Source: Microbacterium testaceum (GTDB taxonomy: Bacteria; Actinomycetota; Actinomycetes; Actinomycetales; Microbacteriaceae). Taken from it: 64,000 nucleotides of DNA. The translations under genes were made by a program, and so were the position numbers. The DNA is taken from the NCBI RefSeq assembly GCF_001476655.1, contig NZ_LDRT01000012.1, forward strand, positions 1-64,000, read 5' to 3'. The notes beneath the pieces are model-generated. The model worked only from the letters and a program-made list of their open reading frames with translations. It was not told where the DNA came from and did no database searches. The stretch's first letter is position 1; every line of letters begins with the position of its first letter. Of this stretch, positions 41,578 through 51,710 are shown piece by piece.

Positions 41578-42535
41578 ATGGTCACCGCCCTAGCCGCCGG
41601 ACGTGCGCGCAGCGACATCGACGTGCTCTCGCGCGCCGGTCTTCCGCTCGCGGACTTCATGGCGGAGTCCGCCGCCACGCTACTGGGCGTCATCCCCTTC
41701 GTGGCGGGCTGCTTCTCGAGCACCGGCCCCGCGACCTCGCTCATCTCGCGCACCTACAAACTCGGCGACCTGCTGGGGCGCAACGAGTCCGATGTCGCCT
41801 GAGCGCGCATCGAGTACGGCGGCGAACCCGACGCGACCCACTACGACGAGATGGCCGCCTCCGGCAGCGTCGCCGCCGGCATCCACTCCGCCACGGGCGG
41901 CCAGGTCGACCGCCTCGAGCGCATGGCCGACCTCGTGCTCCCCCGGTTTGGATACGCCGACGAGGCGCGCGTCGTATTCGCCGACCGGGGTGGAGTCTGG
42001 GCGACGCTGTCCATCCTCCGCGGCACTGACGACGCCGTCTTCGACCCCGCGGAACTCACCCTGCTGACCGAGATCGCCCCGGCCCTGACGCGTGGCATCC
42101 GGACCGGCCTGCTGTCGCAGGTCGCCTCGCGCGAGGCCGCACAACCGACCGGCCCCACCGTGCTCATTATCGACGCGGCGGGTCGCGTCGTGCAGTCGAG
42201 CCCCGGCGCGCAAGAACGGCTCGCGCAGCTCAGCATCCCAGGCACCGACCCCCTCAGCTATATCCAGGCGCTCATCGGCGGAGCCCGCCGCTTCGCATCA
42301 GGGGCGTTGGACCGGATGCCACGCATTCGCACCCGCACCCCCGACGGCGTGTGGCTGGTGCTGCACGCCGCACCCCTCGGCGGCGTCGGCGACCGGGCAG
42401 GCGACGTGGTGGTGACGATCGAAGAGGCACGACCGCAGGAGGTCGTCGACATCGTCGCCGCGGCGTTCACGCTGACTCTTCGCGAGCACGAGGTGGTCGG
42501 GGCGGTGCTCCGCGGTGCCGACACGAGGATCGTTA
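41578..42535 (+). pseudogene. Broken LuxR-family regulator
   Basis: A helical sensor-type N-terminus (MVTALAAGRARSDIDVLSRA) runs to an in-frame TGA at 41800-41802. The same frame then continues as IEYGGEPDATHYDEMAAS and on through PTVLIIDAAGRVVQSSPGAQ to the start of a LuxR helix-turn-helix, FTLTLREHEVVGAVLRGADT, where homology stops at about 42535. Two faults therefore inactivate it: a nonsense codon and loss of most of the DNA-binding domain, replaced by foreign sequence. Confidence 0.85.
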
Positions 42536-42599
42536 ATCTCAATTCTCGCACCGTCGCTGGGGGCTGCGCATGCACGACTAAGGCTGCATTCGCGATTAA

Positions 42600-43466
42600 G
42601 CACCGACGGGCGTCCGTACACGCGCTGGTACGGGGGCGACCTAGGCCAGAACGAGGTTGAGCAGATCGCGCGGGACGCGATTCGTTTCATCTACCTTCCG
42701 GCGCTTCGCGAGGCGGCCGGCGAGCTTCGACCGGGCCCCGGTAACCGGCTTGCCAACCTCGTGTCCTCCCTCGCGCCGGTGGGCCACGCAGACCGCCAGG
42801 CGCTCGTTGACATAATGCAACGAGCGAACGACGAACTGGAGACCGTCGGCTCTGTGATCGCCGCGGCTCAGGCTGTGCAAGGGCGTCTGCAAGGGATTAC
42901 CGGTACTGGCCCGTTCGAGCACGGGTCATCTGTCAAGTTTTCTGAGGCGCGCTTCGAACGCATCATATCCAGCCTGCAGGCGCTCGCTGGATCCGGGACC
43001 GATCTCGGGCGACTGGCTGAAAACGGCCTCGGCTACAACAATCTGCTTTTTGTTGCCGTGTTGCTATCGCTTATCGAGTCCGACCATGAAGTTCCGCTCA
43101 ACTTCCTTCTCGTCGAAGAGCCGGAAGCACATCTGCATCCGCAGCTGCAATCCCTGCTGATGGTCTATCTTGAGTCGCTTACTGATCAGAGCACTCACGT
43201 CATCGCGACCACCCACTCGCCGCAATTCGCGTCCGCCGCTGAGGTGCGCAGAGTGACCGTGCTGCGACGCGGACACGGCAACTCCCCGACAACGGCGCAC
43301 TCCCTCGCAGATGCTCCGATCAGTTCGAAAGGGTTCGCGCACCTTCGACGTTTCCTCGATGCCACAAAGTCCAGCCTCCTCTTCGCCGAGGGTGTCCTGC
43401 TCGTGGAGGGAATTGCCGAGCTGCTTCTCGTTCCACGTCTGGCATACCGACACTGCGAGTACATGA
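42600..43466 (+). pseudogene. OLD-family ATPase/nuclease fragment (GajA-like)
   Basis: The frame carries the middle of an OLD-family endonuclease: YLPALREAAGELRPGPGNRL, a late ABC-like block NGLGYNNLLFVAVLLSLIES, Walker B FLLVEEPEAHLHPQLQ, the H-loop VIATTHSPQFAS, and the first Toprim strand LLFAEGVLLVEGIAELLL. The N-terminal Walker A and most of the Toprim domain, with its DxD, are missing. Reading continues out of frame to 43597. It joins a helicase fragment at about 43467. The gene cannot encode a working nuclease. Confidence 0.8.
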
Positions 43467-43755
43467 GCGGCGGGAGACCGAGGTGCAGACTGTGCACAGT
43501 GTCAAGGGTCGGTCTCTTGATTCCGTTCTATTGGTGGCTCAGGTGCCAGAGCGAGCAATTCATGAGTCGAACGCAGACGTATGGAGCGCTGCCGTGAGCC
43601 AAGCGCGGGTGGTCATGAAAGAGGAGCTTCGGCTTGGCTACGTTGCTCTAACGCGGGCCCGGATCCTCGCGGCAGTGGCACTGCCATCCGATACACCACG
43701 CAGGATCGTCGATCGATGGCTTGAGGCTGGTTTCCAGGCACAATCGGATATCTAG
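43467..43755 (+). pseudogene. UvrD-family helicase 3' fragment (GajB-like)
   Basis: One frame reads ETEVQTVHSVKGRSLDSVLL and then LRLGYVALTRARILAAVALP before the stop at 43753-43755. These are helicase motifs V and VI of UvrD/PcrA-type enzymes. Everything upstream (Walker A, motifs II-IV) is absent because the sequence abuts the OLD fragment. A GTG at 43483 could start a 90-residue product but it would have no ATPase. Confidence 0.8.
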
Positions 43756-44359: not shown

Positions 44360-45007
44360 GTGACGACTCCGGTCGTCGAGCAGCGAATCGTGAAGTCTCG
44401 TGACCGTGTGAGGGCCTATGGGGAGGTCTTCACGCCCCGCTGCATGGTCGATCAGATGCTCGATCTCGTCAGCGACGATCTCGAAGACGGCCCCGATTTC
44501 GTAGACAAGACCTTCCTCGAGCCTGCGGCGGGTGACGGAAACTTCCTCGTCGCAATCCTGCAACGCAAGCTGCAGGCAGTCGAGAAGCGCCTCTCCCCTG
44601 ATGCGTGGGCCGATGAGTCGCTCTTCGCGCTGGCATCGATCTACGGCATCGAACTCCTCGAAGATAACCACGAAGAGGCGCGGGCCGCGATGCTCGCCGA
44701 GTTCGTCGGTTTTCACTCGCGGCACGATGCCGCGCTCAGTCCCGACTCCACGGTCGTCCGCGCGGCACGTTTCCTCATCGACACAAACATTGTCCGAGGG
44801 AACACGCTTACCGGCCTTGACTGGCTCGGCGAAGGGATCCAGTTCTCGTGGTGGAATCGCGTCGCACACTCCCCCGGCATTGTGCAGCGAGAACCTTTCT
44901 CGCTCGCGTCGTTGCGGGAGAGCAGCGGCTTCGACTTCACGGTATACGAAACATACGCAGCGTGCCCGATCGACCGCATCCACGAGGAAGTGAGAGCCGG
45001 TGCCTAG
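44360..45007 (+). CDS. DNA methylase-like protein with SAM motif only
   Basis: A 215-residue protein. VRAYGEVFTPRCMVDQMLDL and FLEPAAGDGNFLVAILQRKL are motifs X and I (SAM binding) of N6-adenine DNA methylases. The catalytic NPPY/DPPY motif is absent, and the end (IQFSWWNRVAHSPGIVQREP) is unlike a target-recognition domain. GTG 44360 follows GGAGAAG at six bases; an earlier TTG at 44318 is unlikely. It overlaps the large helicase gene by eight bases. It may be a SAM-binding subunit or regulator of the methylase encoded downstream; this is inference. Confidence 0.82.
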   Translation: MTTPVVEQRIVKSRDRVRAYGEVFTPRCMVDQMLDLVSDDLEDGPDFVDKTFLEPAAGDGNFLVAILQRKLQAVEKRLSPDAWADESLFALASIYGIELLEDNHEEARAAMLAEFVGFHSRHDAALSPDSTVVRAARFLIDTNIVRGNTLTGLDWLGEGIQFSWWNRVAHSPGIVQREPFSLASLRESSGFDFTVYETYAACPIDRIHEEVRAGA

Positions 45008-48000
45008 CCCGAATATCCGAACGTTCCGCGAGGTCGTGCCCTACATCTACTCGTGGACGACCCCCGATATCCCAAAGTACGACGGCTGGGAGAAGATCGG
45101 GTACACCGAGCAAGACTCGGCAGACAAGCGCATTGCGCAGCAGGCGAGCCAACTCAACATCGCGAAGGTGAAGCAGTGGGCCTACCGCGCAGCGTTCATC
45201 ACCGAAGACGGTGGCACGTTCCGTGATTCTGACTTCCATGCGTTTCTCAAGCAGCAGGGCATCGAGCGCGAGGTGGATCCCGCGAACGCCCTGAGCCGTA
45301 CGGAGTGGCATAGGTTCGCCGACGCGCCGAAGTCGAGTCGGCAGTATTTTCTCGACTTCGCGTCGAAGTCGTTCACCACGCAGTCAGGGGCCTCGCAGGA
45401 CGACTACGAACTGCGCCCCGAGCAGCGCGAAGCGGTCACCCAAGCGCTGACAGCATTCGGCGCGCGCAACGCCCACGAGGTGTTGTGGAACGCGAAGCCG
45501 CGATTCGGCAAGACGCTGACGACGTACGATCTTGTGCGCGAAATGGATGCCCGTCGAGTTCTGATCGTGACGAATCGCCCCGCGATCGCCCACTCCTGGT
45601 TCGATGACTATCAGCGGTTCATCGGCCATCAGACGACGTATCAGTTCGTGTCCGACTCTCCGTCGCTCGGTCAGCGCGGCCCGATGACGCGTGAGCAGTG
45701 GCGCGCCTACTCCCGTGAGCACATTGATGAAGACCCGCGCATCATCGAGTTCGTGTCGCTGCAGGATCTGAAGGGGTCCAAGTACTTCGGCGGGTCGTTT
45801 GACAAGCTCAAGCACATCGCCGACGCCGACTGGGATCTCCTCGTGATCGATGAAGCGCACGAGGGTGTCGACACGACGAAGACGGATGTCGCGTTCACCC
45901 AAATCACCCGCAGCCACACGCTGCACCTGTCGGGGACACCGTTCAAGGCGCTCGCGTCGGGCCGGTTCGCTGCGGATCAGATCTTCAACTGGACGTACGA
46001 AGACGAGCAAGAGGCAAAGACTTCATGGTCGGATGACGGGGTCGACAATCCGTACGCGCAGCTGCCGACCCTAAACCTGCTGACCTATCAGCTGTCCCGG
46101 ATGATCACCGATTGCCTCGCCGAGGGCGTTGCGCTCGACGAGGAGGCCGGGAACGTCGACTACACGTTCGATCTCGCGGAGTTCTTCGCCACGAAAGACA
46201 ACGGGCTCTTCGTGTACGAAGCCGATGTGCTTCGGTTCCTTGACGCGCTGACGTCACTGGAGAAGTACCCGTTCTCGACCTCGGAGCTGAGGGACGAGAT
46301 CCGACACTCGTTCTGGCTGCTCAACCGAGTTGCATCGGCGAAGGCACTTGAGCGGCTGCTGAAGAAGCATCCCGTCTTCGGCGAGTATACGGTGATCCTG
46401 GCGGCCGGCGACGGTCGCCCGAACGTGGGCGAGAACGACGGACTCGACGAAGACGCCGACGACGCGGCGACCGTCGGCAAGTCACTCGATGAGGTTCGCG
46501 CCGGTATCGTTGAAGCGGAGGCTAAGGGCGGCAAGACGATCACGCTGTCGGTGGGTCAACTTACGACTGGCGTCACGGTGCCGGAGTGGACAGCGGTCAT
46601 CATGCTGTCCAATCTCTCCTCCCCCGCTCTCTATATGCAAGCAGCGTTCCGCGCGCAGAACCCGTGCACGTTCACCCGCGGCGGCAAAATGTTTCAGAAG
46701 AAGAACGCCTACATCTTCGACTTCGCTCCCGAACGCACGCTCACGATCTTCGATGCGTTCGCCAACAACCTCGCTCCGAGTCCCCCCGTTGATACTGGTG
46801 ACCGCAGGGAGAACATCAGACGACTTCTGAACTTTTTCCCCGTCCTGGGTGAAGACACTGAGGGTCGGATGATCGAGCTCGACGCGGCGCAGGTACTCAC
46901 GTTCCCTCAGGTGTTCAAGGCTCGCGAAGTCGTCCGGCGAGGCTTTCTGTCGAACCTGCTGTTCGCCAACGTGTCCGGCATCTTCCGAGCTGTGGAGCAC
47001 TTCGAAGACATCCTCAACCAGCTGCCCGTCGCGAAAGAGAAGAAGGCCACGCAGGTCGGTCCGATCGACATGCCGTTCCCGCCGCCAACGACCGACGCGG
47101 ACGGCAACGTGCAGATCGATGTCGGCACCGTCATCAACCCGAAGGTCGCCGAGCTGGGCAAGCCAATCTACGCCGACGCCGACGTTCCGCAACTCGACCC
47201 GGCAACAACGAAGGCTGCCGATGCCGCCAAACAGGTGGCTGCGGTCGTGACAGAGAAGGCACGCGACACGCGTGCCAAGGTGGCGGCCGAATACGGAATG
47301 ACCGCGAAGCAGATTGAGAACGACGAGAAGTCCACCGCGGCGCTAGTGAAGGCCAAGGTCGAACGCGCCTACGTCGACCACCAGATCGCGCTCAGCCACA
47401 TCGATGCCGAGGGCGCGGATGCGGCCACGGAAGCCGACTTCATCGCGATCGACGAGAAGAAGTCCGGCGCGAAAGCTGAGCTCGACGCGCGTGTGCTCGC
47501 GATCTTTCACAGCGCGCTCGACAGCGTCACCGAGACCATCGTCACGCGCGAGGAAACAAAGAAGGCGCAGTCGCACGCGAACAAGACGATGGATGCCGCG
47601 CGCGACCATCTGCGCGGGTTCGCGCGCACCATCCCGATGTTCCTCATGGCGTACGGCGACCGCAGCACCGAGCTCGCCAACTTCGACGACTACACACCGG
47701 ATGACGTGTTCGCCGAGATCACAGGCATCACCGAGGAAGACTTTCGCAAGCTCCGCGACGGCCGCGACGTCTCTGATCAGGCCACCGGAAACATCACTCG
47801 CGTTCCCGGCCTATTCGACGAAGCCGTCTTCAATCAAGCGATAAAGGAATTCCTGACCAAGAAGGCCGAACTCGCCGACTACTTCGACCCGGCGCTGACT
47901 GAGGACATCTTCGCATACATCCCGCAGCAGAAAACGTCGCTCGTGTTCACCCCGAAGCCTGTCGTGCAGCTGATGTGCGACACGCTCGAGGCCGAGAACC

Positions 48001-48332
48001 CGGGCATCTTCGCAGACCTCGATAAGACATTCGCCGACCTGTTTTCCACGGCTGGACTGTTTTGCATGGAGATTGTCCGTCGGCTCGACAAAGGCCTGGC
48101 CGACGCGATTCCTGACCAGCGCGAGCGGCTGAAGCACATTTTCACCCGCCAGGTGTTCGAGATGAGTCCGAACCAGATCCTGCACGACATCACACTGGAA
48201 GCCGTCAGCGGTGGCGTCGCTGAACGCCGGGCGTGGCTGGAAGACTCCGGACACTTCCGAGTCGGCGACCTCGCTCGAATGAATGCCGAAGAACGCGAGC
48301 GGGTCGTTGACGAGATGCTGGGAGACAACTGA
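45000..48332 (+). CDS. GIY-YIG nuclease-DEAD helicase-methylase N-half fusion (restriction enzyme)
   Basis: A 1110-residue restriction-type protein. Residues 14-50 match a T5orf172/GIY-YIG nuclease core: PYIYSW for GIY, KIGYT for YIG and the Arg in DKRIAQQ. A superfamily 2 translocase follows: Walker A KPRFGKTL near 166-173, IDEAH at 283-287, SGTP at 311-314, and a second RecA domain about 480-620 (QLTTGVTVPEW, QAAFRAQNP). Residues 680-960 are largely helical. From 979 on, VFTPKPVVQLMCDTLEAENP and TFADLFSTAGLFCMEIVRRL are methylase motifs X and I. The chain stops where a methylase would continue to NPPY; that half is the next gene. Role: DNA cleavage with translocation. Confidence 0.85.
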   Translation: MPSPNIRTFREVVPYIYSWTTPDIPKYDGWEKIGYTEQDSADKRIAQQASQLNIAKVKQWAYRAAFITEDGGTFRDSDFHAFLKQQGIEREVDPANALSRTEWHRFADAPKSSRQYFLDFASKSFTTQSGASQDDYELRPEQREAVTQALTAFGARNAHEVLWNAKPRFGKTLTTYDLVREMDARRVLIVTNRPAIAHSWFDDYQRFIGHQTTYQFVSDSPSLGQRGPMTREQWRAYSREHIDEDPRIIEFVSLQDLKGSKYFGGSFDKLKHIADADWDLLVIDEAHEGVDTTKTDVAFTQITRSHTLHLSGTPFKALASGRFAADQIFNWTYEDEQEAKTSWSDDGVDNPYAQLPTLNLLTYQLSRMITDCLAEGVALDEEAGNVDYTFDLAEFFATKDNGLFVYEADVLRFLDALTSLEKYPFSTSELRDEIRHSFWLLNRVASAKALERLLKKHPVFGEYTVILAAGDGRPNVGENDGLDEDADDAATVGKSLDEVRAGIVEAEAKGGKTITLSVGQLTTGVTVPEWTAVIMLSNLSSPALYMQAAFRAQNPCTFTRGGKMFQKKNAYIFDFAPERTLTIFDAFANNLAPSPPVDTGDRRENIRRLLNFFPVLGEDTEGRMIELDAAQVLTFPQVFKAREVVRRGFLSNLLFANVSGIFRAVEHFEDILNQLPVAKEKKATQVGPIDMPFPPPTTDADGNVQIDVGTVINPKVAELGKPIYADADVPQLDPATTKAADAAKQVAAVVTEKARDTRAKVAAEYGMTAKQIENDEKSTAALVKAKVERAYVDHQIALSHIDAEGADAATEADFIAIDEKKSGAKAELDARVLAIFHSALDSVTETIVTREETKKAQSHANKTMDAARDHLRGFARTIPMFLMAYGDRSTELANFDDYTPDDVFAEITGITEEDFRKLRDGRDVSDQATGNITRVPGLFDEAVFNQAIKEFLTKKAELADYFDPALTEDIFAYIPQQKTSLVFTPKPVVQLMCDTLEAENPGIFADLDKTFADLFSTAGLFCMEIVRRLDKGLADAIPDQRERLKHIFTRQVFEMSPNQILHDITLEAVSGGVAERRAWLEDSGHFRVGDLARMNAEERERVVDEMLGDN

Positions 48333-48333
48333 C

Positions 48334-49386
48334 ATGGCCAAGAAATTCGACGTCGTGATCGGGAACCCGCCGTATCAGGAGGACGCCAGCGGAACGGCGA
48401 CGCACAGCATGCCGATCTATCACCGCTTCATGGATGCCGCCTACGAAGTCGGCACCAAGGTTGTGCTCATCACTCCAGCACGGTTCCTATTTGACGCGGG
48501 GTATACCCCGAAGGACTGGAACGCGAAGATGCTCGCCGACCGACACCTTTCGGTCGCCCATTTCGCCCCTAACAGCGATGAACTCTTTCCGGGAACCATC
48601 ATTAACGGTGGGATTGTCGTCACTTACCGCGACGCCGACCTCGAGGTCGAGCCAATTGGCACGTTCACACACTTCCCTGAACTCAATACCATTACGAAGA
48701 AGGTGCGGTCGAAGGGCTTCGAGCCGTTGGAATCGATCGGTATCACCAGCTCCCGATCCTTCCGTTTCACACCCAAGATGCATGAGGACTTTCCTCAGGC
48801 CTCGACTCTCATGGCCGCAGGCGAGCAGTTCAAAATCAACACGAAGACTTTCGATCAGCTCGCTTTCCTCTATTCCGAGCAACGCCCGCAGGACGGGCAA
48901 ATCTACGTGCGCGTCATGGGACTTGATGGAAAGCAGCGTACTTCTCGCTGGATCCTTGGCGAATACGTCAGTGGCCCCGCGAATCTCGGAAAGTTCAAAG
49001 TGGTGCTGCCGGCGTCTCGGGGGCACCTCGGTACTCTCGGGGCGGAGCCAGCAATCGTAATCGGTACCCCGTTCCTGGGCGAGCCCGGCGTAGCCGTAAC
49101 CCAGACGTACATCACCATCGGGGCTTTCGACTCGGAACCCGAAGGCGGGTCGTGCCTGAAGTATGTTAAGTCGAAGTTCGCGCGCGCACTGATCGGCATC
49201 ATCAAGGCTACGCAGCACAACCCCGCGAAGGTCTGGAAGTACGTGCCAGCCCAGGACTTTTCATCAGCATCCGACATCGATTGGTCGAAGTCGATCCCCG
49301 AGATCGACGCGCAGCTCTACGCCAAGTACGGCCTGGACGACGCAGAAATCACCTTCATCGAATCCCACGTTAAGTCGATGGAATGA
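48334..49386 (+). CDS. Eco57I-type adenine methylase, catalytic half
   Basis: A 350-residue protein. Motif IV NPPY is at residues 10-13 (KFDVVIGNPPYQEDASGTAT), followed by ITPARFLFDAGYTPKDWNAK, typical of Eco57I methylases, and a variable target-recognition region. It has no motif I of its own; that motif ends the previous gene. ATG 48334 starts one base after the previous stop (TGACATG), with GGGAG eight bases upstream. Removing one base there would give one continuous protein. It should methylate adenine to protect the host, either with the upstream C-terminus or with the small methylase as SAM-binding partner. Confidence 0.85.
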   Translation: MAKKFDVVIGNPPYQEDASGTATHSMPIYHRFMDAAYEVGTKVVLITPARFLFDAGYTPKDWNAKMLADRHLSVAHFAPNSDELFPGTIINGGIVVTYRDADLEVEPIGTFTHFPELNTITKKVRSKGFEPLESIGITSSRSFRFTPKMHEDFPQASTLMAAGEQFKINTKTFDQLAFLYSEQRPQDGQIYVRVMGLDGKQRTSRWILGEYVSGPANLGKFKVVLPASRGHLGTLGAEPAIVIGTPFLGEPGVAVTQTYITIGAFDSEPEGGSCLKYVKSKFARALIGIIKATQHNPAKVWKYVPAQDFSSASDIDWSKSIPEIDAQLYAKYGLDDAEITFIESHVKSME

Positions 49387-49404: not shown

Positions 49405-50490
49405 TCAGTCGTCAAGTCCGAACGCTGCCGTGACCTGTTCGATCGTGAACTGCTGACGAAGCTTGGCTGCAGTGTTCTGGTTCGCGAACATACCGGTCTT
49501 CCAGAACCCCTGCTCTCGCGGCACTGTACGGGCCCAGGCAACTGGCACCGCCCATTCGGCCATCGCATCGTCCTGGTCGTCCGCGTGCCGGTAATATCCG
49601 CTCAGCGGAAGGTCCGCGAGCCGCGTTTCGCTTCCGTCGACGGTGACGGTGGTTTTGTCGAATCTCTGGGCCTCGCCGATTACCGTGCCGACGCCGACGT
49701 AACCGACCTTAGGGATGCAGGCGAAGACCCGTGCGCCAAGCGGGAGATTCTTTAACGTGCGAGAAAACCACTCGCCGCCACCTCCAGACACAAATCCGTA
49801 GGCCATTCCGTCGGACCAGTGACGGCTTTCTGGGCTGTCGCCGAACGAGACGTACCAGTCCGTGCCATTCCATGACTCGCGCGTCTTGGTGCGCACTGAG
49901 GCCGTCTTCGGGCTCGCCGCACCTTCGGGCTCGACGAGCCACGTGCGCGCGAGGTAGGACGCACCGTTGTCGTTAAAGTGTCGGAAGAACACGACATTGA
50001 TCGGCACACCGTAGTCCTCGTTGAGAAAGCGGACGATTCGCTCGGTTGCCGCATCGACGCTCGCCGCCACGATCGTGAAGACCTGCGTGGCGTTGACCTC
50101 GTCGGGAAGGGTCTCATTGAAGCGTTGCGCAAACGCCTCTTCCAAGGCGATGTCGGGCTTGTAAGCCTCGAAGATGGCGTGGATCTCCGCGCGGCTGAGC
50201 CCAGACACCCAGGAGCCATAGTCCAGCGCCTGTGCAGTCACGTCTCGGGGTGTCTTGTCGCGCTTGAGTTCGATCACATGAACAGCAGCCGTCTCATCGA
50301 GCGCCATAAGGTCGATGAACCCGCCGTGCGCAGTCGGCACCTGCCGACCGATGACAAGCAAGGTAGTCCCAAGCATGGTCGGGTCGGACTCGATGTAGTT
50401 CTCGAGCTGGGACTCAAGCCCAATCGGCGTCGGCACTAATCGGCTCAACTTGTCGCCGTCGGCCCGCCATATTCCCATCTCTACTGCCAT
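49405..50490 (-). CDS. NucS-like endonuclease domain protein (DUF91)
   Basis: A 361-residue protein. Residues 20-110 hold a PD-(D/E)XK nuclease-like core: GLESQLENYIESDPTMLGTT, GGFIDLMALDETAAVHVIEL and KRD, giving D-x(n)-ExK, as in DUF91/NucS proteins; RDVTAQALDYGSWV follows. The C-terminal half is mostly beta and unassigned (WYVSFGDSPESRHWSDGMAY). It is shorter in the N-terminus than true NucS and is not that mismatch enzyme. It converges on the methylase genes with only 18 bases between stops, so it could be an accessory nuclease of the same island. ATG 50490 has GAGGGG upstream. Confidence 0.78.
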   Translation of the reverse strand: MAVEMGIWRADGDKLSRLVPTPIGLESQLENYIESDPTMLGTTLLVIGRQVPTAHGGFIDLMALDETAAVHVIELKRDKTPRDVTAQALDYGSWVSGLSRAEIHAIFEAYKPDIALEEAFAQRFNETLPDEVNATQVFTIVAASVDAATERIVRFLNEDYGVPINVVFFRHFNDNGASYLARTWLVEPEGAASPKTASVRTKTRESWNGTDWYVSFGDSPESRHWSDGMAYGFVSGGGGEWFSRTLKNLPLGARVFACIPKVGYVGVGTVIGEAQRFDKTTVTVDGSETRLADLPLSGYYRHADDQDDAMAEWAVPVAWARTVPREQGFWKTGMFANQNTAAKLRQQFTIEQVTAAFGLDD

Positions 50491-50605
50491 GATCGTCGTC
50501 CCCTCGGATGGGCGGCACAAGGACGGCGCCACCGACGCGCGTCGTCTTGATCGTATGGCTTCCTGTCCTGAGACGTAGTTGCGGTGGCGTACTCCAAGTT
50601 CGCAA

Positions 50606-50695
50606 CGTAAGCAGCGGCTCGGCGACGATGTCGCGGATGCGCATTCGCGGTTCCAGCGAGGCAATCGGGTCTCGGAACACGATCTTCGCGACGCC
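50606..50695 (-). pseudogene. Fossil of an oligopeptide ABC ATPase gene
   Basis: The minus strand reads VAKIVFRDPIASLEPRMRIR followed by DIVAEPL, the Q-loop block of OppD/OppF-type ATPases (consensus MVFQDPxxSLNPRMTV). The Q-loop Gln is Arg here. Nothing else of the gene is present within the 263-base gap between the nuclease gene and the membrane protein gene. Confidence 0.55.
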
Positions 50696-50753
50696 AACAC
50701 GATGTCGTCGCTCACCGGTAGCTTTCGACCCACGTGGCCGGAAGGAGATGACG

Positions 50754-51710
50754 ATGGCAGAGAGCACGAGCTCGGACGTGCGGAATGAAAGTGAGGTTCT
50801 TCGAGTCCTGTCGAACCTCTTCGGGGTGAGGTGGGACCGCCTCGTTCAATGGGCCGTCGTGGCACTCGCAAGCGGCTGGCTGTGGTCGAGCGCCATGCCT
50901 TCCATGGCGGTCCGCCCGGACAATTTGTTCGACCAGGGACCGATCGACTGGCTCATCGAGGGGCTCATGAACCTCGGAATGGGCGTGCCACAGTGGCTGA
51001 ACGACACTCCAGCATGGTTGATGCAGCCGGGGCACGCATGGGTCGTTCAACTCCTGCCGGTCGTCGCGGCGCTATGCGGCACGTTCTTGGTGAAATCTCA
51101 ACGCAGCTCGGGCCTTGTCGTCCTAGGCGTCCTCGCGATGGTCACAAGCGTGCAGGCAACATCGGACTTCGCGCCGGTGTTGTGGACGCTCGTTTGGACT
51201 GTGGTCCCTATGGTTCTAGCCCTTGGCCTCTCCGTCATTCAAACGCGCTTCCACGAGATGGACACGGCGCTGCCGAGCCAGGGCTACGTGTCGACACTCA
51301 TCTTCGAACGGTTCCTGCTGGCTGGGTTAGCGCCGATCTGGCAGGTTTTCCTCGGCCCCGCGATTGGAGTCGCGCTGGCCGTGAGCATGTACGGCGTTCC
51401 GCGCACCCCGGAGGAACCGACTCGAGAACTCATGAGAACCCGAATGAGGAAGCTGCGACGGTCCGGCAAGACCGTGTCTGAAGCGGGGGCGGCGGATGCC
51501 CTCGGCGTCCTCGCGGCAGTATTTCTGGCGGAACCGGACCGGCAATCTCGACAGGAACTAGCGGCGGATGCTCTGTTCGCCCTCGACGGGCCGCTGGGAG
51601 CAGGAACTGTCGCTCACCGACCGCCCTCTGCACCGGCCTCTCCCGCAGGCACTACCCCGAGCGGCGGACTACGGGGAGGTACGCACCCGACGAGCAGCGC
51701 TTCTCGGTGA
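50754..51710 (+). CDS. Membrane protein of unknown function with possible frameshifted C-terminus
   Basis: A 318-residue protein. Hydrophobic helices lie at about residues 32-48 (LVQWAVVALASGWLWSSA), 94-112, 118-135, 140-160 and 185-210. Residues 225-290 are soluble and helical. The last about 30 residues (SAPASPAGTTPSGGLRGGTH) are low-complexity; in another frame the same bases encode a better TPR-like sequence ending at 51777, so the natural C-terminus may have been lost by a frameshift near 51590. GAAGGAG is seven bases before ATG 50754. I do not recognise the family. Confidence 0.65.
   Translation: MAESTSSDVRNESEVLRVLSNLFGVRWDRLVQWAVVALASGWLWSSAMPSMAVRPDNLFDQGPIDWLIEGLMNLGMGVPQWLNDTPAWLMQPGHAWVVQLLPVVAALCGTFLVKSQRSSGLVVLGVLAMVTSVQATSDFAPVLWTLVWTVVPMVLALGLSVIQTRFHEMDTALPSQGYVSTLIFERFLLAGLAPIWQVFLGPAIGVALAVSMYGVPRTPEEPTRELMRTRMRKLRRSGKTVSEAGAADALGVLAAVFLAEPDRQSRQELAADALFALDGPLGAGTVAHRPPSAPASPAGTTPSGGLRGGTHPTSSASR

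Follow-up and report, generated by a model that had tools for sequence, protein, structure and literature searches.

A putative restriction-modification operon of Microbacterium testaceum with a split adenine methylase whose catalytic half may be shared by two alternative N-terminal halves

Introduction

The type ISP restriction-modification enzymes LlaGI and LlaBIII carry a nuclease, a superfamily 2 (SF2) motor, a helical coupler, a gamma-class adenine methylase and a target-recognition domain in this order, and in the accessible sections of its description LlaGI is a single chain with an Mrr nuclease (PMC4872093). The operon studied here follows the same order, and fold models of its relatives match both enzymes. 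It lies at positions 44360-49386 (forward strand) of a stretch of 64,000 nucleotides from Microbacterium testaceum (assembly GCF_001476655.1, contig NZ_LDRT01000012.1, positions 1 to 64,000), called the window below, and consists of the genes g1, g2 and g3. Unlike type ISP, it has three genes, a probable GIY-YIG-type nuclease, a methylase in separate chains and an additional N-terminal methylase half. We suggest that it encodes an ATP-dependent restriction-modification system in which g3, the C-terminal part of an adenine methylase, serves two alternative N-terminal partners: g1 for marking, and the end of g2 (N') for cutting. We put the probability of this reading at roughly 0.58.

Single traits of the operon have precedents. 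The methylase motifs of M.AquI and M.EcoHK31I are spread over two polypeptides; in the part of the source available, however, these are C5-cytosine methylases split at other motifs, and a rival N-terminal half is not mentioned there (PMC3404938). In Bacillus subtilis, DnmA-YeeB-YeeC places an adenine methylase beside SF2 helicase and T5orf172/GIY-YIG genes; the available text describes DnmA as an MmeI homologue and mentions no separate half (PMC9973331), and the likeness is drawn from these gene descriptions. A GIY-YIG survey of 2006 reports, in its accessible part, a GIY-YIG domain inserted in an HsdR as well as nuclease-methylase fusions (PMC1564403), and in the accessible text of a 2026 survey of BREX systems GIY-YIG does not occur (PMC12839542). 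An imitation N-terminal half that shares a C-terminal half is not described in the available portions of PMC4872093, PMC3404938, PMC9973331, PMC1564403 or the Type II review PMC4081073. No published description of this architecture was found by full-text searches, which covered few subscription papers and preprints and not REBASE, and some sources in part only.

The operon can be regarded as a variant of restriction-modification outside types IIG, III and ISP. Type I systems have a separate specificity subunit, HsdS, beside HsdM and HsdR; the profile scans listed no HsdS-type model for g1, g2 or g3, without thereby excluding HsdS, and the variable recognition region sits in g3 together with methylase motif IV. 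An earlier reading of the bare sequence (the original prediction) had recognized in it no standard layout of type I, II or III that it could name, and this was correct as far as tested. Type IIG enzymes combine a nuclease and an active methylase in one chain and have no ATP-driven motor; here a helicase domain is present and the methylase is divided. Type III systems consist of Mod, with a complete methylase in one chain, and Res, and no gene of the operon unites an intact motif I with motif IV. Of the traits of type ISP, the SF2 helicase-like motor is present (Pfam ResIII, E value 2.9e-12), whereas the three genes replace the single polypeptide and the motor chain has no intact N6-adenine methylase, N' being degenerate in 106 of 106 rows and the NPPY of motif IV lying in g3. 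Mrr was not listed in a Pfam scan of nine g2-type N-termini (E up to 10; T5orf172 and MUG113 were listed, for the window below the cut-off), which does not exclude an Mrr nuclease. A split two-chain DNA methylase seems to be the description that suits the motif division, the natural fusions and the predicted fold. CamA, M.BseCI, M.TaqI and MmeI, which the fold models of fused relatives match across both halves, are single-chain methylases or restriction-modification enzymes without a motor. Finally, the PADLOC profile REase_MTase_IIG (PDLC03626, 1359 amino acids) matches g2 in the helicase region (8.4e-21), g3 (3.7e-26) and also the relatives scanned; it is a one-chain profile and is not among the models listed for g1 of the window at E up to 1.

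Results

All three genes are intact. As predicted, they overlap or abut: g1 and g2 share 8 bases, and one base separates g2 from g3. g1 (44360-45007, forward strand like all features of the operon; 215 amino acids) is the N-terminal half of an adenine methylase. Under the motif names that we assign to these stretches, it carries GEVFTP (X), the canonical cofactor motif FLEPAAGDGNFL (I, 44513-44548), YGIELLEDN (II, 44642-44668), the acid of which presumably binds the ribose of the cofactor, and NIVRGNTL (III), and it has no motif IV. The separate motif I that the original prediction had seen in the first gene is thus confirmed, in the company of X, II and III. Pfam methylase matches of g1 are all below threshold. 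g2 (45000-48332, 1110 amino acids) starts with a GIY-YIG/T5orf172-like nuclease domain (residues 15-106, 45042-45317), continues with an SF2 helicase (ResIII part, 45405-45944) and ends with N' (47592-48329, start approximate), which we identified by hhalign to the g1a family described below and the AlphaFold model of a fused relative. T5orf172, which by clan membership we take to be a GIY-YIG-type family, matches eight of the nine N-termini scanned, six of them over the cut-off, and residues Y17, G34, R44, H80 and E102 are invariant in 12 of 12 aligned sequences; the GIY-YIG start that had been predicted for g2 is therefore plausible to good, although the window itself stays below the cut-off. 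g3 (48334-49386, 350 amino acids) is the C-terminal methylase half. It opens with MAKKFDVVIGNPPYQ and contains the predicted NPPY (motif IV, 48364-48375; Pfam Eco57I, 4.9e-15) and, at approximately 48694-49050, a target-recognition region, the stretch with the lowest conservation among close relatives. NCBIfam gave nothing above cut-off for the operon or six relatives scanned, and sequence searches of the PDB with the queries g3, A3 and A1 gave zero matches.

An alignment of g2 was used to search 84,980 species genomes; this gave at least 548 relatives among at least 592 pattern matches, of which the best 80 were used. Fifteen loci came from viral contigs and others from plasmids, phages and more genomes, and profiles built in this analysis placed g1 (in two related kinds, g1a and g1b), g2 and g3 in them. 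In g1a, the kind of the window, the E, the P and both glycines of motif I are kept in 49 of 49 relatives and the acid of motif II in all 48 ungapped rows; in g1b, 51 of 51 relatives keep the E, C, G, E and P of motif I, which is LEITCGEAP-like, and the acid of motif II. Motif IV is absent from 49/49 g1a and 51/51 g1b relatives, and with this motif missing in 100 of 100, g1 as an independent methylase is ruled out. g3 relatives have NPPY in 99 of 102 cases, NPPF and NPAY once each, and none of these within the first 60 residues of L008.

N' shows altered versions of the motifs of g1. The original prediction had g2 end in motifs X and I: X is there (VFTP), but motif I is degenerate (FADLFSTAGLF, 48030-48062), and a degenerate motif II follows it (FEMSP, 48156-48170). 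Of 106 rows, 73 have K and 33 have T at the fifth position of motif I, and none has G; the aligned acid of motif II is replaced by A (72), S (33) or N (1), a loss in 106 of 106; on these losses, the end of g2 together with g3 was rejected as an active methylase. The altered motifs X, I and II are well conserved across the 106 rows, with an acidic first residue of motif I in 105 and its last glycine in 106, and they are retained also in loci with g3 fused to g1. N' is homologous to g1a (hhalign, 96.5%, E 9.4e-10, 61 columns), g1a matches g1b at 99.2% over 143 columns, and g1b matches N' at only 72.8% over 21 columns. Judged by these comparisons, N' is a degenerate copy of a g1-type half.

Natural fusions join g3 to either half. 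Of 102 rows of a g2 tree, 91 have one of four clean layouts: all genes separate in the order g1, g2, g3 (41 of 91), g1 with a fused g2-g3 (11), a fused g1-g3 with a separate g2 (22), and all separate with g3 upstream of g2 (g1, g3, g2; 17). Where g2 precedes g3 (52 loci), the two are thus fused in 11; where g3 follows g1 (39 loci), those two are fused in 22. No g1-g2 fusion (0/52) and no g3-g2 fusion (0/39) was found, although these genes are neighbours as well (with one gene between them in some Streptococcus loci): as far as the sequences tell, fusions only place an N-terminal half ahead of g3. N' joins g3 at the same border as the g1-type half does, and 31 of 33 fused proteins have a Met near the former g3 start, as compared to 11.7% of 8-residue stretches in fused proteins. 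On a quick tree, with near-copies among its rows, the layouts had to change 13 times, whereas shuffling gave a mean of 43.9 changes; gains and losses together, the g1-g3 label changed 8 times and the g2-g3 label 4 times. The 91 rows hold a duplicate (L037) and near-copies (L104-L106, L109, L113; Streptococcus), and the counts are therefore not numbers of independent events. Loci with a gene off the end of the stored stretch, interrupted or in pieces were omitted from the layout counts: 11 of the 80 genome loci (L043, L050, L051, L075, L076, L079, L088, L093, L096, L097, L102), four of the 15 viral loci (L111, L112, L114, L116) and the earlier loci L004, L005, L006, L009, L014, L018, L019, L020 and L022; L010 and L017 have a separate N'-g3 layout and were not counted, and L001 is the window.

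Since the four layouts by definition require all three parts, completeness was checked apart. g1 is found in 93 of the 102 rows (the 91, L088 and L114), and in the other nine no more than 430 bases of stored sequence precede the first detected gene. The tree loci come from records of Actinomycetota, Bacillota, Pseudomonadota, Thermodesulfobacteriota, Planctomycetota, Spirochaetota and Thermomicrobiota, and a number of these records are metagenome assemblies. In the class of the window, 5 of 296 genomes have g2 relatives (E up to 1e-20, the window's own included), two of them in the distant layout; all five carry g1 relatives too, and g1 relatives occur in eight of the 296. The three genomes with g1 only have it at a contig end, beside a helicase piece, or as a weak match. 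Some loci have additional genes inside: in Streptococcus (L057, 5028-5978), an abortive-infection-like gene, Abi_2-like by eye, separates g2 from the fused g1-g3, and in L081 (5354-5998) a small extra gene, by eye GIY-YIG/T5orf172-like, lies between g3 and g2.

The gene border between g2 and g3 was surveyed in the 42 rows ordered g1, g2, g3; without L001 (the window's copy), the duplicate L037 and L082 with its gap of 511 bases, 39 remained. In the window, the single base predicted between stop and start (TGACATG, 48330-48336) is borne out, and GGGAG stands 9 bases before the ATG (48320-48336 in all); by eye, a purine-rich stretch precedes most g3 starts. The six nearest relatives (L023-L028, g2 identity 83-90%) all have TGA, one base and ATG, and across the 39 rows the gap varies from -11 to +3 bases with all three frames represented, frame 0 only once (L049) and with a stop in between. 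Because L023-L028 share the junction while gap and frame vary elsewhere, neither an error nor conserved slipping explains it: a frameshift or assembly error is ruled out, as is programmed slipping, and the one-base change by which the original prediction would have broken a long single chain finds no support. Of its other proposal, restart or slipping of ribosomes, only restart fits, and restart or coupled translation would be the ordinary reading of this junction. Although g2 and g3 are fused in 11 of the 91 classed loci, the closest relatives are all split, and from these comparisons the methylase is almost certainly split by nature.

AlphaFold2 models were obtained for natural fused relatives with family alignments: g1b-g3 of L094 (671 amino acids, 70 rows; predicted local distance difference test (pLDDT) 89.8, predicted template modelling score (pTM) 0.88) and N'-g3 of L048 (607 amino acids, 75 rows; pLDDT 91.0, pTM 0.86). 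In both models, the strand series of a single methylase continues across the junction, giving a confidently predicted whole adenine-methylase fold. With VIA-align, g1b-g3 and N'-g3 superpose on CamA with Z 19.1 (root-mean-square deviation (rmsd) 5.1, 416 residues) and Z 21.0 (rmsd 5.1, 402 residues), on LlaGI with Z 17.2 (rmsd 6.0, 432) and Z 18.4 (rmsd 6.2, 413), and on M.TaqI with Z 13.5 (rmsd 4.2, 326) and Z 16.1 (rmsd 4.4, 328), and the ranges aligned on CamA, LlaGI, LlaBIII and M.TaqI cover both halves. Both pairings are predicted to fold as a full methylase, and since g1 and N' are predicted to complete the same g3 sheet, a given g3 would accommodate only one of them.

In L138 and L144, both viral contigs, g1a continues directly into g3 within one frame (521 and 529 amino acids), with all motifs in order and without N'. 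A g2 was found neither in L138, of which 5.9 kb are available and whose contig begins only 314 bases upstream, nor in the 13.2 kb that surround L144. The L144 protein matched 11 of 396 genomes of the phylum. Eight of the matches break at about residue 174 into a g1 frame of 210-264 amino acids and the end of a frame of 527-638 amino acids, two of these eight holding a TGA inside the match; for the other three, only one piece passed. Ten of the 11 genomes have an N'-g3 protein with g1 beside it, and in 10 of 10 the motif I glycine is K. Among the viral contigs, the L144 protein found three loci, L144 itself and two with N'. This split pattern is what the loss of N' from between g1 and g3 would look like. 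As a g1-type half and g3 form one protein in 22 of the 91 loci and in the orphans, for which no g2 was found, g1 and g3 together are very probably the methylase. The original prediction had divided one methylase fold between g2 and g3 and had considered that two chains build one active site: the two chains are supported and g3 is the motif IV half, but the intact cofactor half, and hence the likely active partner, is g1 and not the degenerate end of g2.

Eighty viral loci were retrieved with g1 as query, and the presence of g1 in them is thus uninformative. In the distant layout with a free N'-g3 protein, the motif I lysine occurs in 31 of 31 proteins, and the motif II acid position is non-acidic in all 27 that are readable; three relatives on plasmids of lactic acid bacteria share this lysine. 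These three, from Lactococcus and Levilactobacillus (L227, 2664-7049; L228, 3518-7876; L229, 1720-6162), consist of g1 and an N'-g3 core on a helicase protein, the N-terminus of which is of another kind, unlike GIY-YIG; in L229 g1 lies downstream. On a Sphingopyxis plasmid (L017, 9176-12035), genes for an AAA ATPase and an S8 peptidase directly follow the g1, N'-g3 and helicase genes. A lone g1, with no g2 or g3 found in at least 2.5 kb on each side, occurs in four of the 80 viral loci above 100 bits (L124, 4965-5603; L130, 4860-5522; L134, 5001-5663; L165), and shorter or diverged in 20 of the 80. These lone halves are possible counter-defence proteins.

Among close relatives g3 varies most and g2 least. 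In eight Streptococcus loci, the mean pairwise identity is 91.3% for g1, 94.1% for g2 and 61.2% for g3, with 33-35% in the middle of g3; for the window and its six nearest relatives the values are 77.1, 86.1 and 65.1%, and the middle of g3 drops to 47-57%. The identity of the target-recognition region is 33-52% in Streptococcus and 47-57% in the actinobacteria. As a nearly constant g2 accompanies widely differing g3 regions, g3 is the probable source of its specificity.

Discussion

The methylase is split in natural loci, g1 and g3 lack complementary motifs, g3 is fused in turn to either N-terminal half, and variation concentrates in g3; on these features of the sequences we base the proposal of a shared half. 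g3 would supply the catalytic NPPY and the target-recognition region to either N-terminal half. With g1 and its intact S-adenosylmethionine (AdoMet) site, it would form an adenine methylase that protects the host DNA. With N', it would form a methylase-shaped reader incompetent for methylation, which would deliver the motor and the GIY-YIG nuclease to the same, unmodified target. That N' pairs with g3 we consider probable; that this pairing serves as the restriction reader through exchange has about an even chance. From the features above we infer the exchange of g1 and N' on g3, its role in deciding between marking and cutting, the activities of nuclease and motor, and the type of target. Exchange on g3 would imply competing affinities, and it is a tentative and rather unlikely further step that g3 acts as a toggle between writing and cutting, with its cofactor half being exchanged and g1 and N' competing for one surface.

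Several observations weigh against a shared half. The fold models are those of fused relatives as single chains, not of the chains of the window. T5orf172 scores 18.0 bits in g2 of the window, below the cut-off of 20. All g1-g3 fusions within full restriction loci are of the g1b kind, and g1a, the kind of the window, is fused only in the two orphans. Outside the tree, g2 is shortened in L112 and in L050; neither g1 nor g3 was found within the 5 kb upstream in L112, while in L050 g1 is present but g3 is missing. In 31 of the 80 viral loci and in the genomes matched by L144, N' forms one protein with g3, apart from the motor; N' travels there with g3 rather than with the motor, and it therefore does not belong strictly to the restriction subunit. 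AdoMet may still be bound despite a degenerate motif I, and M.TaqI is off consensus as well. Finally, in 33 of the 106 N' rows, including the window, the lost acid of motif II is preceded by an E two positions away.

The main rival is a fixed holoenzyme with two copies of g3, an active g1-g3 and an inactive N'-g3, in which nothing is exchanged and N' is a scaffold for recognition and motor. METTL3-METTL14, a pair of an active and an inactive methylase, is the model for this arrangement. The company of g1 and g2 in 93 of 102 tree rows, with the remaining rows ending at the edge of the stored stretch, the retention of the N' motifs where g3 is fused to g1 and the confident prediction of both folds agree with it. 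However, in loci in which g3 exists only as g2-g3 or N'-g3, g1 would have to pair with a g3 already joined to N', and the tests made gave no sign of two g3 copies per complex. We regard the fixed holoenzyme as unlikely, yet as an explanation that has to be reckoned with. It is still less probable that g1 and g3 form a complete methylase on which the nuclease-helicase docks as Res does on Mod, with N' as the docking remnant of an old single-chain enzyme that does not fold with g3. The two g1-g3 orphans for which no g2 was found and the single-chain g1-g3 with a separate g2 would suit such docking; the good conservation of the altered N' motifs, the fusion of N' to g3 at the same border and the full methylase fold predicted for N'-g3 (pTM 0.86) argue against a mere remnant.

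There is very little to recommend methylation by N'-g3 with g1 as an accessory protein or regulator, such as a sensor of AdoMet: the acid and the last glycine retained in N' motif I and the nearby E in a third of the rows (33/106) could be read in its favour, but the aligned motif II acid is lost throughout, and it is g1 that is joined to g3 alone in the two orphans and, as g1b, in 22 loci. For the window junction, sequencing error and disruption of a single-chain enzyme can both be dismissed, since the junction recurs in L023-L028, gap and frame vary elsewhere and another layout has g3 upstream of g2, even if fused relatives exist, one of them actinobacterial (L048).

If the half is indeed shared, a single variable gene would solve the classic problem of matching the specificities of marking and cutting, and specificity would evolve without two matched domains. 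The system would also provide a natural, swappable split adenine methylase, and it would explain why, in annotated plasmids, small genes labelled "N-6 DNA methylase" that lack motif IV are found next to large ones labelled "Eco57I methylase". Should the toggle exist, viruses with a lone g1 (L124, L130, L134, L165) may capture the g3 of the host, and the captured g3 may methylate phage DNA or leave the nuclease without its reader.

Genomic neighbourhood

Upstream of the operon lies a probable remnant of a Gabija system (42515-43755, forward strand): a frame of 360 amino acids matches GajA profiles over their middle only (best 104-414 of 627) and is followed by a UvrD-like end, recognized by eye from VHSVKGRSLDSV and GYVALTRAR. 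Directly downstream, on the reverse strand (49405-50871), lies a gene for the candidate defence protein PDC-S11 (PADLOC, 2.3e-148), which is weakly NucS-like. As this candidate adjoins the operon, the operon seems to lie within a defence island.

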